From Nitrobacter winogradskyi (GTDB lineage Bacteria > Pseudomonadota > Alphaproteobacteria > Rhizobiales > Xanthobacteraceae): 64,000 nt of DNA. The stretch covers positions 1-64,000 of the forward strand of contig NZ_BJNF01000072.1 in the NCBI RefSeq assembly GCF_006539545.1. The letters are read 5' to 3'. Of this stretch, positions 2,238 through 31,711 are shown one piece after another. The notes beneath the pieces are model-generated. The model did no database searches. It saw only the letters and a program-made list of their open reading frames with translations, and was not told the DNA's origin. Positions within the stretch are counted from its first letter, which is position 1. Every line of letters begins with the position of its first letter. Both the position numbers and the translations under genes were made by a program.

Positions 2238-4847
2238 TCATGTTCCCGTCGCCTCGCGGACGAGTTGCTCGGCGGCTTCGGCCAGCAATTCGTCCGACGC
2301 TTCGCCATAGACCGTCTCCCGCCCGATCTCCAGCATGACGGGCACCGCGAGCGGTGAAATGCGCTCGAGCGGCTTGTGATCGATCCGTCCCCGAATCCGC
2401 GCCAGCATATCGCTGAGGCGGCGGATATCCAGCAACCCCGTTGCTGCATCTGCCCGCGCGGCGCGCAGCAGCATGTGGTCGGGCTGATGCTTGCGCAGCA
2501 CGTCATAGACGAGATCGGTCGAGAACAGAACCTGCCGCCGGCTCTTTTCCGCTCCGGTGAACCGGCGGGCGATCAGGCCCGAAATGATCGCGCAACTGCG
2601 GAAAGTGCGCTTCATCAACGCGGATTCGGCAAGCCACGCTTCCAGATCATCACCCAGCATGTCCGGATCGAACAAGGCGTCGAGATCGAGCCGTCCCTGC
2701 CGGATCATCGACGAGGGATCGCCGAGCATCCAGACCGCGAGCGCATATTCGTTGGCGACGAAGCCAAGCGGCCGCGCCCGCGCGCGTTCCAATCGCCGCG
2801 TCAGCAACATGCCGAGAGTCTGGTGCGCAAGCCGTCCCTCGAACGGATAGCAGACCAGATAATGCTTGCCGGCGCGCGGAAAGGTTTCGACGATCATCTC
2901 GCGGGCATGCGGCACGCGTGAGAACCGCGACTGCAAATTCAACCATTCGCGCACCTGATGCGGCAGGCCGCGCCATGCGCGCTCGTCGTCGAGCAGGCGG
3001 CGAACGCGTTCGGCCAGATAGGTCGAGAGCGGAAACTTGCCGCCCATGTAGGACGGCACCTTCGGGCTCTCATCGTTCGCGCGTGAAACGTAGACCTGAT
3101 CTTCGACCAGCGCCTCAAAGCGCACGATCTCGCCGCCGAACACGAAGGTGTCGCCGGCCACGAGCCCCTCGATGAAATATTCCTCGATCTCGCCCAGCAT
3201 CCGGCCGCCGCGCGCGATCGCGCCGGTAGGACCTTTACCGCCGCCGTGCCGCGAGCGCACCAGCCTCACCTTCAGCATCGCCTCCTCGACGATGGTGCCG
3301 ACATTGAGGCGATAGCTCTGCCGCGCGCGCGGATTGGCGACACGCCAACGCCCCTCTTTGTCCTGCCTGATGCGGGCGAAGCGTTCATAGCTCTTCAGCG
3401 CATAGCCGCCGGTGGCGACGAAATCGACCACGCCGTCGAAGTCGGCGCGCGGCAGCGCCGCATAGGGGGCCGCGGTCCGCACTTCCTCGTAAAGGTCATC
3501 GGCGTGGAACGGCCCGCCGCAGGCGCAGCCCATGACATGCTGCGCAAGAACATCGAGCGCGCCCGTGCGCAGCGGCGGCGTGTCCTGCGCGTTTTCGTTG
3601 ACCGCGTCGATGGCGGCGCGGCATTCCAGCACTTCGAACCGGTTAGCCGGGACCAGAACCGCGCGCGAGGCTTCATCAAGGCGATGATTGGCGCGGCCGA
3701 TCCGCTGCATCAGCCGCGAGGCGCCTTTGGGCGCACCGATATTGATGACGAGATCGACATCGCCCCAATCGACCCCGAGATCGAGCGAGGAGGTGCAGAC
3801 CACGCCGCGCAGCCGTCCGGCCGTCATCGCCTGCTCCACCTTGCGGCGCTGCGCGACATCGAGCGAGCCGTGATGCAGCGCGATGGCGAGGCCGTCGTCG
3901 TTGATGCGCCAGAGATCCTGGAACAACATCTCCGCCTGGCTCCGGGTGTTGACGAACACCAGCGTCGTCCTGTTGCGCCTGATGAGATCGTAGATCTCGG
4001 TCAGCGCATGGCGCGCCGAGTGCCCCGCCCACGGCAGCCGTTCGCTCGTGTCCAGCATCTCGACAATCGGAGCAGCGGCGCCGTCGGCCTCGACGATGTC
4101 GGCCGAAACGGTTTTGCCTCGCGGCTGCGGCGCCAGGAATCGCGCCAGCGCGTGCGGATCGGCCACCGTCGCCGACAGGCCGATCGTGCGCATTTGCGGC
4201 GCGAGCCGCCATAACCGAGCCAATGCCAATGACAACAGATCGCCTCGCTTCGAGGTCGCCAGCGCATGCAGTTCATCGAGCACGACGCGCTGCAACGACG
4301 AGAACAGAAAGGACGCGTCATCGGAGGCCAGCAGCAACGCGATCTGTTCGGGGGTGGTCAGCAGGACATCCGGCGGGTAACGCCGCTGCCGCTGCCGCCG
4401 CGACACCGGCGTGTCGCCGGTGCGGGTCTCGACCCGGATCGGCAGATTCATTTCCGCGATCGGGGTCTCCAGATTGCGCGCGATATCGACCGCCAGCGCC
4501 TTCAATGGGGAAATATAGAGGGTGTGAAGGTGTTGTCCCTTGCCTGATATTTCCACCAGCGTCGGCAGGAATCCGGCCAGCGTCTTGCCCGCGCCGGTGG
4601 GGGCGATCAGCAGCGCCGGGCGGCCGTCACGCGCCTTTCGCAGCAAGGCCAGCTGATGTGCGCGCGGCGACCATCCCCGCGCCGCGAACCAGCGCAGAAA
4701 GCCGTCCGGCAGCAATGGCTGCGCTTCGCGATCAGCGATTCCCACGCTGCAAGAGGTAGGGCGTCCCGCCTGTCCGGTCGAGTTCGAACGCGACCAAAGC
4801 GTTTGCGAGCGAGCGGATGACCTGCTCGCGTGAAGAAAACGCGTCAA
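2238..4847 (-). CDS. Ligase-associated DEXH-box DNA helicase (Lhr family)
   Basis: Superfamily 2 helicase, about 835-869 residues. Visible motifs: Walker A APTGAGKT (residues 82-89 from the first ATG), the DELH box, GLSAT (motif III), and QRIGRANHR (motif VI), followed by the Lhr-type C-terminal region. Expected role is ATP-driven DNA translocation in repair together with PdeM. The start is uncertain. The ATG at 4847 lies inside a dispersed repeat (4826-4873) and its first 35 residues look unlike the family. A GTG at 4745 would give the compact N-terminus usual for this family, just before PLLPDGFLRWFAARGW. It reads away from the outer-membrane protein gene at 5114. Confidence 0.88.
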   Translation of the reverse strand: MTRFLHASRSSARSQTLWSRSNSTGQAGRPTSCSVGIADREAQPLLPDGFLRWFAARGWSPRAHQLALLRKARDGRPALLIAPTGAGKTLAGFLPTLVEISGKGQHLHTLYISPLKALAVDIARNLETPIAEMNLPIRVETRTGDTPVSRRQRQRRYPPDVLLTTPEQIALLLASDDASFLFSSLQRVVLDELHALATSKRGDLLSLALARLWRLAPQMRTIGLSATVADPHALARFLAPQPRGKTVSADIVEADGAAAPIVEMLDTSERLPWAGHSARHALTEIYDLIRRNRTTLVFVNTRSQAEMLFQDLWRINDDGLAIALHHGSLDVAQRRKVEQAMTAGRLRGVVCTSSLDLGVDWGDVDLVINIGAPKGASRLMQRIGRANHRLDEASRAVLVPANRFEVLECRAAIDAVNENAQDTPPLRTGALDVLAQHVMGCACGGPFHADDLYEEVRTAAPYAALPRADFDGVVDFVATGGYALKSYERFARIRQDKEGRWRVANPRARQSYRLNVGTIVEEAMLKVRLVRSRHGGGKGPTGAIARGGRMLGEIEEYFIEGLVAGDTFVFGGEIVRFEALVEDQVYVSRANDESPKVPSYMGGKFPLSTYLAERVRRLLDDERAWRGLPHQVREWLNLQSRFSRVPHAREMIVETFPRAGKHYLVCYPFEGRLAHQTLGMLLTRRLERARARPLGFVANEYALAVWMLGDPSSMIRQGRLDLDALFDPDMLGDDLEAWLAESALMKRTFRSCAIISGLIARRFTGAEKSRRQVLFSTDLVYDVLRKHQPDHMLLRAARADAATGLLDIRRLSDMLARIRGRIDHKPLERISPLAVPVMLEIGRETVYGEASDELLAEAAEQLVREATGT

Positions 4848-4873
4848 ACTACAATCAGAAGCGAAAATGCTCC
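4826..4873 (+). repeat. Partial family A repeat
   Basis: The sequence ctcgcgtgaagaaaacgcgt followed closely by aatcagaagcg matches the second half of the family A element seen complete at 53009-53136. The first half is missing. It contains the first possible ATG of the Lhr-like gene, so that start is doubtful. Confidence 0.65.
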
Positions 4874-5113
4874 AGCCGCGCGAAACGATGGCGAATCAGC
4901 GAACCCGGTACACCGGCCGGAACCGGCTTCGGCATGGCCGGGAGACGGCGGCAGAACCGCGCCGGGAGCCGGAATCGCCACGCAAGCCGCTGATTTTCGC
5001 GAGATTTTCATCTTCACGGCATCATTCCCGGCAGGTGTGGCTACCGAACCACAGACAAGTTTCCCATCGAAGGGTACAGTCTCCGGGTCATTTGCAGACG
5101 GGGACTATCCATA

Positions 5114-30591: not shown

Positions 30592-30706
30592 CGCGCCTTC
30601 CTTTCCAGGGATGGGGCAATATGCCGGGCGTGCATTCGTTCCGCGCCCGCGGCCCGCTAATCGTGTTCCTGTTCTGATATCAAGGCTTTGGTACCGCGCC
30701 GCACAT

Positions 30707-30737
30707 CTTGAACGGCGTGCAAATCATGCCATATTTG
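30707..30737 (+). promoter_or_regulatory. RpoH-type heat-shock promoter of hsp20
   Basis: CTTGAAC at 30707-30713, then GCCATAT at 30728-30734. This fits a sigma-32 promoter (CTTGAA and C-C-A-T-A-T with normal spacing) and would give a leader of about 180 bases. Confidence 0.65.
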
Positions 30738-30895
30738 ATTCGACCGTCTGGAAACGTCAGACGGCCAGCGGGGCGCCGCAAGGGCCCTGCGCTTGATCCG
30801 CCGAAATGTGGCGGTTCGGCCGATGGAACACGCGCCATCAACTCCGGCGCGCGACCGCACGCCCGACCGAAATCATTTTTGCTGGTCGCGCGCGT

Positions 30896-30919
30896 CAAAG
30901 TCGCTTCGAGAGGACTTTG
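30896..30919 (+). promoter_or_regulatory. ROSE-like RNA thermometer hairpin hiding the hsp20 ribosome binding site
   Basis: CAAAGUC-G-CUU / GAG-GACUUUG form a hairpin with loop CGA and one bulged G (30903), which pairs the Shine-Dalgarno GAGGA with the anti-SD on the other arm, two bases before the ATG. The UYGCU near the SD and the bulged G are the hallmarks of ROSE elements of rhizobial small heat-shock genes. The upstream leader is GC-rich and could form further stems. Confidence 0.65.
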
Positions 30920-30921
30920 TA

Positions 30922-31347
30922 ATGTCTCGTGTTCCTTCGTTATCCAGTCCGTTCCTGTTGGGATTCGACGAAATCGAGCGGGCGCTCGACCGCGTCGTCA
31001 AAGGCGCCGACGGCTATCCTCCCTACAACATCGAGCGGTGCGACCGCGACAGCGGCGAGCCCGAACGGCTGCGGATCACGCTGGCGGTGGCGGGGTTCAC
31101 CCGCGACCAGCTTGATGTGACCATTGAAGAAAATCAGCTTGTGATCCGGGGCCGGCAGCAGGAGGATAAAGCCCGGCAATATATCCATCGCGGCATTGCC
31201 GCGCGCCACTTCCAGCGCACCTTCGTGCTGGCGGAGGGGATGTTGGTGCTGGGCGCGGACCTGAAAAACGGGCTATTGTCCATCGATCTGGCCAGGCCGG
31301 AACCTGAAAGGGTCGTTAAGACAATCGCGATCAATGAACACGAATAA
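30922..31347 (+). CDS. Small heat-shock protein (Hsp20/alpha-crystallin family)
   Basis: ATP-independent holdase of 141 residues. Start MSRVPSLSSPFLLGFDEIERAL is the usual rhizobial N-terminal phasin-like pattern; the alpha-crystallin domain spans about residues 33-125 with LAVAGFTRDQLDVTIEENQLVIRG. An A-x-x-x-n-G-L motif is present as ADLKNGLLSIDL. The C-terminal I/V-x-I/V tail is visible as KTIAINE. The ATG at 30922 follows the regulated SD; open frame extending to 30793 is leader. Followed by the DUF1150 gene, its usual partner. Confidence 0.93.
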   Translation: MSRVPSLSSPFLLGFDEIERALDRVVKGADGYPPYNIERCDRDSGEPERLRITLAVAGFTRDQLDVTIEENQLVIRGRQQEDKARQYIHRGIAARHFQRTFVLAEGMLVLGADLKNGLLSIDLARPEPERVVKTIAINEHE

Positions 31348-31444
31348 TGCACAACCCGACAAACGCCGGTGAGCCGGCATAAAAGCTTTCGGGTGCAACA
31401 AGTAGCGGACTCGACCGCTTAGTCTGGTAAAAGGAGTCGAGACC

Positions 31445-31711
31445 ATGAGTGAAGTGATTTCCACGATCCGGCCTGAAAGCGTCTCCACCGAGTCGCTGGC
31501 GCAGCTCGGCGAAGGCCACATCGCCTATGTGAAGCAGGTGCGTTCCGAGGACGTGCCGGAACTGTTTCCGCAGGCTCCAAGAATCGCGCCCGGCCTCATG
31601 CTGTTCGCGCTGCACGCCGCCGACGGCACCCCGATCATGCTCACCGATTCGCGCGAGGCCGCGGTCGCGAGCGCGTGGAGCAACGAGTTGCAGGCCGTCA
31701 GCGTGCATTAG
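31445..31711 (+). CDS. DUF1150 family protein
   Basis: 88 residues; conserved stretches ESLAQLGEGHIAYVKQV and MLFALHAADGTPIML. The family is small, alphaproteobacterial, and commonly lies directly after hsp20, 97 bases away here. The ATG follows AAAAGGAGTCGAGACC, a good ribosome site. Function unknown; a role with heat-shock protein is inferred from neighbourhood only. The stop codon overlaps the first bases of a family B repeat. Confidence 0.85.
   Translation: MSEVISTIRPESVSTESLAQLGEGHIAYVKQVRSEDVPELFPQAPRIAPGLMLFALHAADGTPIMLTDSREAAVASAWSNELQAVSVH

Follow-up and report, generated by a model that had tools for sequence, protein, structure and literature searches.

A likely ROSE-type RNA thermometer at the ribosome-binding site of hsp20 in the hsp20-larA gene pair of Nitrobacter winogradskyi

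The 64,000-nucleotide stretch of Nitrobacter winogradskyi DNA that we analyzed (the window) contains a small heat-shock protein (sHSP) gene, hsp20, whose Shine-Dalgarno sequence (SD) lies within a hairpin, and this raises the question of whether translation of hsp20 is controlled by an RNA thermometer. ROSE-like thermometers are defined by a U(U/C)GCU motif that pairs imperfectly with the SD, a predicted bulged G, a location in an sHSP 5′ UTR with two to four hairpins, and temperature-dependent translation (PMC11342760, PMC3669281). In our judgment, the final hairpin in the hsp20 leader is quite probably a ROSE-type RNA thermometer that closes the hsp20 ribosome-binding site, with its opening by heat ascribed to it from the behavior of the family. 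The locus also resembles the Caulobacter sHSP2-larA operon, which is under sigma-32 and whose LarA is a DUF1150 protein that activates Lon (PMC10665427). Here too a DUF1150 gene comes after an HSP20 gene, with a sigma-32-type promoter in front, a likeness of arrangement. The features of the locus are collected in Table 1.

Table 1. Features of the hsp20-larA locus, in window coordinates.
Feature	Position	Strand	Basis
RpoH (sigma-32)-type promoter, CTTGAA ... CCATAT	30707..30734	+	sequence and pattern match
GC-rich hairpin GGGGCGCCGCAAGGGCCC of the leader, 5′ of the putative thermometer stem	30770..30787	+	pattern in orthologue leaders
Some 100 additional leader bases, present in part of the Nitrobacter group	30788..30893	+	leader comparison, fold
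ROSE-type hairpin closing the hsp20 SD	30896..30919	+	fold, core motif, conservation, class-wide covariation
hsp20, small heat-shock protein gene, DUF1150 gene next	30922..31347	+	Pfam HSP20, E 5.9e-17
Second hairpin, a candidate for closing the larA SD, CUCGACCGCU ... AGGAGUCGAG, just 5′ of larA	31410..31441	+	fold, arm words
larA (DUF1150), presumed Lon activator	31445..31711	+	Pfam DUF1150, E 2.6e-32

The sequence of the hsp20 hairpin, CAAAGTCGCTTCGAGAGGACTTTG, folds to (((((((.(((...)))))))))) at -7.6 kcal/mol, giving a 10-bp stem in which 30896-30902 pair with 30913-30919 and 30904-30906 pair with 30910-30912. The UCGCU core occupies 30901-30905 with G30903 unpaired, and the SD, GAGGA at 30910-30914, is paired throughout. 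Sequence and fold thus confirm a hairpin with a bulged G and a paired GAGGA as described in the first-pass annotation, and the UYGCU motif and bulged G that it placed opposite the SD are present. It had also taken the hairpin to be the 24 bases before the ATG; the position of the hairpin holds, but UA (30920-30921) intervenes before the start codon at 30922-30924. With respect to the ROSE-like definition, UCGCU pairs imperfectly with AGGA at 30911-30914, G30903 supplies the predicted bulged G, and the leader of this Pfam HSP20 gene forms further hairpins in its folds. The same G is found in all rows of two class-wide sets of 17 and 19 described below, which were, however, selected for UYGCU.

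Seven of 200 dinucleotide shuffles matched the energy of the hairpin (z -2.27), and 24 of 200 equaled the folding energy of 30820-30930. Folding energy alone is weak evidence, and it is conservation together with class-wide covariation that lifts the hairpin above chance. In the 210-base leader the hairpin is retained in the best fold at 25, 37 and 50°C. In ViennaRNA predictions for the short leader, the mean probability of being unpaired in the SD rose from 0.09 at 25°C to 0.14 at 42°C, leaving the SD mostly paired; for the first two SD bases of the long leader this probability rose from 0.13 to about 0.29 toward 42°C. Five Rfam-positive ROSE leaders (for two of which the SD register chosen by script is doubtful) showed predicted opening no larger than that of the hsp20 leader. 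The hsp20 leader was not separable from these five by predicted melting, which we used neither for nor against a thermometer.

Among close relatives the hairpin is strongly conserved. The four named records nearest to the hsp20 protein are from Nitrobacter (99-100%), and in the 80 named orthologue loci, which are the best 80 of 467 confirmed and hence close relatives, the hairpin is present in all 80, with identical letters in 66. One SD base differs in eight, changing a U-A pair to U-G, and the remaining six differ in loop length and sequence. We built a covariance model from 14 rows hand-picked from order-level relatives. In these 139 of 140 cells are paired and three pairs vary on one side, with no pair changed on both sides and thus no compensatory change. 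Searched against its own genome, the model gave the hsp20 site 2.9e-9 and the next site 0.087, a match by construction since the model includes the window's own 28-mer. Over 41 genomes the sHSP2 site was the best match in 27, of which 18 carry a 28-mer already included in the model and nine do not.

To reach beyond close relatives we assembled 133 leaders across the Alphaproteobacteria, 37 from the 41-genome set (own genome included; three genomes, G011, G032 and G038, matched at paralogue level only and G027 was unmatched) and 96 from a class sample of 190 genomes, 97 of which, own included, contain an hsp20 relative at 1e-33. Removal of one leader that was too short and two duplicates left 130 unique leaders, with start codons chosen by script and a few of them probably wrong. 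Of the 130, 103 have UYGCU no more than 45 bases from the start, and in 99 it is followed by AGRR. The motif was found in 4-12 of 129-130 sequences in five upstream control windows and in 3-11 of 123-125 in three coding ones, and UYGCU followed by AGRR in 0-2 in all eight. Shuffled leaders gave UYGCU in a mean of 14.7 (maximum 24) and UYGCU with AGRR in a mean of 4.0 (maximum 10). Looser forms, such as CCGCU with AGGG, are present in 12 of the 31 leaders outside the 99, leaving 19 of the 130 with neither UYGCU-then-AGRR nor any of the looser forms searched.

For covariation we anchored 93 rows on the core; an earlier MAFFT alignment of 61 hairpins was dropped, as differing loop lengths had misplaced the SD. 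Because the 93 rows were chosen for UYGCU and AGG[AG], the core pairs hold by selection and only the other pairs are informative. Next outward from the core, a standard pair is formed in 81 of 93 rows (G-C in 36, C-G in 40); shuffles gave 46% on average and 66% at most. Stem pairs 2-5 are paired in 51-59% of rows with shuffle maxima of 53-63%, so that they lie at, barely above or below the maximum, with pair 3 scoring better in a slid register (0.65 versus 0.56); pairs 6-7 are equal to shuffles or below. We then took the two equal-loop sets, namely all 17 rows with a loop of 7 and all 19 with a loop of 6 among the 93. The named structure gave covariation scores of 0.399 and 0.386, slid pairings reached at most 0.204, and none of 500 shuffles scored as high; the core-adjacent pair is standard in 17/17 and 19/19 rows. 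The number of pairs changed on both sides was not above shuffles in these sets (389 and 274 of 500 shuffles equal or exceed it). The switch between G-C and C-G requires at least five changes on a protein tree with 126 rows, 72 of which are labelled, but well-supported branches force only one, so the class-wide covariation may rest on few events. Covarying pairs in relatives, which the first-pass annotation had named as a check, are thus seen class-wide and not among the 14 close relatives. Taken together these data support the view that a ROSE-type stem closing the SD has been kept by selection.

Rfam models give a more qualified picture. A permissive scan (E up to 10) of 30600-31000 returned a sole match, to ROSE, which is full length (30831-30922) and scores 16.8 bits with an E of 4.1 over all families. 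The gathering threshold of ROSE (RF00435) is 45 bits, and the leader is accordingly not a member of RF00435. At gathering thresholds the entire 64-kb window contains two tRNAs and no ROSE family. The ROSE model search proposed in the first-pass annotation yielded this full-length match, but at Rfam's own threshold its outcome is no ROSE hit. ROSE_2 (RF01832) and ROSE_3 (RF02523) have no match in the window, and a search of the own genome, with 150 of 237 first-look candidates scored, gave no ROSE match at E 10. None of 32 further sHSP2 orthologue loci (16 in one Rfam scan and 19 in another, with three in both) reached a ROSE cut-off. ROSE_3 was above cut-off in none of the 190 class genomes, which hold 13 weaker ROSE_3 matches, one of them on the sHSP2 leader of genome G056. 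ROSE copies above cut-off do precede other hsp20 genes in related genomes, scoring 57-73 bits at three loci, with four such copies in genome G004 and two in G005.

Farther upstream, the RpoH-type promoter that had been claimed at 30707 is indeed found, with CTTGAA starting at 30707 and CCATAT at 30729, and the hsp20 transcript start is placed from this pattern. CTTG-N14-19-CN{1,2}AT[AC]T is present in 64 of 132 orthologue leaders, compared with a mean of 1.9 and a maximum of 6 in mononucleotide shuffles and 2 on the reverse complement. The pattern of the GC-rich hairpin recurs in 74 of 132 leaders; mononucleotide shuffles averaged 4.6 and reached at most 12, and the reverse complement gave 9. 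Between this hairpin and the putative thermometer, the extra leader segment holds a strong GCGCGCGACC/GGTCGCGCGC stem just 5′ of the thermometer hairpin; the segment is missing in the sister loci L007 and L010 and shorter in L005 and L006. We rejected a repeat element as its origin, as the own genome has no second copy (the best other match is 23 bases at 91%, E 0.03).

The earlier reading of a ROSE-like thermometer at hsp20 is thus supported by the UYGCU motif, the unpaired G, the paired SD, the sHSP gene, the RpoH-type promoter and the class-wide covarying stem. Sequence, core motif, conservation, covariation and promoter pattern are seen directly, and we infer opening by heat and an effect on translation. 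At growth temperature the UCGCU strand would pair with the SD while the outer CAAAG/CUUUG stem would clamp the hairpin, and the unpaired G together with A-U and U-G pairs would keep the core labile. Warming would then free GAGGA and allow ribosomes to start on hsp20. Heat would also raise transcription through the RpoH-type promoter, so that hsp20 would be controlled at two levels, as would larA if, as we presume, the two genes are co-transcribed and share a message.

Closure of the SD need not imply melting, and we considered whether the stem merely reduces basal translation or stabilizes the mRNA, with heat control exerted through RpoH alone. We judge this improbable. In its favor, the opening that the energy model gives for 42°C is small. 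The Caulobacter operon is described as sigma-32 controlled, and the words "thermometer" and "rose" are absent from the main text of that report (PMC10665427). Furthermore, A. tumefaciens hspC, which may or may not be the same orthologue, is reported not to be heat-inducible (PMC3504140, PMC2885654), and in M. loti a microarray showed no heat induction of hspH, an sHSP gene that bears a ROSE element (PMC3989490). However, the core motif recurs class-wide while the adjacent pair switches between G-C and C-G, as expected of a stem kept for its stability, and thermometers with this core have been tested in other sHSP leaders (PMC3669281). Still less credible, and in our view very unlikely, is closure of the SD by the start of the ORF (GGACU with AGUCC at about 30946-30950) in place of the upstream UCGCU arm. 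This pairing gives the best fold of 30890-30951, a short leader with 30 ORF bases (-13.3 versus -8.3 kcal/mol for the hairpin alone), but the upstream hairpin is the one retained when the leader is folded at 210 bases. An AG[CU]CC word does occur in the first 40 ORF bases of 80/80 named loci, though it encodes conserved residues. The ORF start also shows loose five-base complementarity to the SD more often (22/36 and 26/40) than the control does (1/31 and 8/40); yet G[UC]CC is equally common with an SD of AGGAG (31/40) and AGGAC (30/36), and CUCC is not enriched with AGGAG (5/40 versus 5/36), whereas the upstream arm follows the SD change.

A different possibility, which we regard as rather unlikely, is that the leader serves mainly as a feedback-repression site for the sHSP itself, as with E. 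coli IbpA on its mRNA 5′ UTR. In that case heat would act by drawing the sHSP to unfolded proteins and not through hairpin melting, a role that is compatible with a thermometer. IbpA R93 is essential for RNA binding, and both R93 and Y34 are described as conserved among alpha-proteobacterial IbpAs (PMC10474464). The window sHSP has an R and a Y matching these two residues. Class-wide, an R stands at the place of R93 in every one of the 125 proteins, out of 133, where the motif could be located (one of two search forms demanded R or K), and Y or F precedes PPYN in 122 of 133. Set against this, IbpA K98, which is needed in E. coli with R tolerated, is a T in the window sHSP and is K or R in 7 of 125; R93 may have been kept for other reasons; and we found no binding data for the window sHSP.

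A ROSE-type thermometer would place the hsp20 leader beside several known systems. Like ROSE (RF00435), which precedes class A sHSP genes of rhizobia, it has a UYGCU core with a G opposite the SD, forms the last of several leader hairpins before an sHSP gene, and matches the full-length model weakly. It differs in its outer stem and in its low score, the copies above cut-off in related genomes being those of other hsp20 genes. The short ROSE-like thermometers of Pseudomonas ibpA likewise set U(U/C)GCU against the SD in a 3′ hairpin, but they belong to another gene lineage with another outer stem and were reporter-tested, whereas the window hairpin is known from sequence (PMC3669281). The hsp20 product is 45% identical to E. 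coli IbpA. The ROSE_2 model matches the E. coli ibpA leader but neither the window nor the scanned orthologue loci, and the second cistron here is a DUF1150 gene. Both E. coli leaders, of ibpA and ibpB, have UCGCU shortly before the SD, so that a hairpin for each cistron may have a parallel there. In the ibpB leader of E. coli K-12 (3970-4923 of locus L278) we noted CUCGCUU before AAGGAG, much as UCGCU precedes AGGAG in ibpA, perhaps as one hairpin per cistron. A 2005 survey by Waldminghaus et al. reportedly covered more than 40 ROSE-like candidates. In the titles and abstract openings returned by literature searches, a thermometer of this operon is not named. The kind of element is already known, and what is added here is the class-wide support, the link to larA and the second hairpin, the latter two absent from the first-pass annotation. 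ROSE-type control is thereby extended, with covariation support, to an hsp20 gene with close relatives in 97 of 190 sampled alphaproteobacterial genomes, mostly beside larA, and the comparison points to a group that current Rfam ROSE models do not recover among the loci scanned. A thermometer in the hsp20-larA pair would link mRNA temperature sensing both to a chaperone and to control of the Lon protease by its regulator.

The assignment of larA is supported by NCBIfam BQ00720_DUF1150 (121.5 bits, cut-off 80), and of the 126 orthologue loci with sufficient sequence, 102 have a LarA relative downstream (tblastn, E up to 0.01). Just before larA, CUCGACCGCU (31410-31419) can pair with AGGAGUCGAG (31432-31441), the arm that contains the larA SD. 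The arm words are present in all 80 named loci (the best 80 of 467) with a variable spacer of 10-12 bases, and they are nearly invariant, leaving too little variation for covariation. The region 31404-31447 folds at -12.9 kcal/mol, an energy equaled by 8 of 200 shuffles. When the pattern was loosened, it matched the larA site in 17 of 41 genomes and eight sites elsewhere, against six matches for a reversed control pattern. A competing GCGG/CCGC stem is possible before larA, as the invariant block extends upstream (GCGGA in 80/80 named loci). We consider the larA leader hairpin no more than a candidate thermometer or coupling device. Tentatively, and as something possible rather than probable, the sHSP2-larA gene pairs of the Bradyrhizobium/Nitrobacter group may carry one SD-closing hairpin per cistron, giving the chaperone and the Lon activator separate heat thresholds. 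On this proposal the first hairpin would represent a ROSE lineage that is class-wide and probably ancestral in Alphaproteobacteria, one missed by the Rfam ROSE models at 32/32 loci scanned, and the sHSP might also bind the leader and repress itself as IbpA does. Elsewhere in the same genome, a second hsp20 (L122; contig C71, 49677-50176, minus strand) has a ROSE-like hairpin, GGUUC..GUCGCUCAAUGGAGGAC..GAACC, directly 5′ of an ATG.
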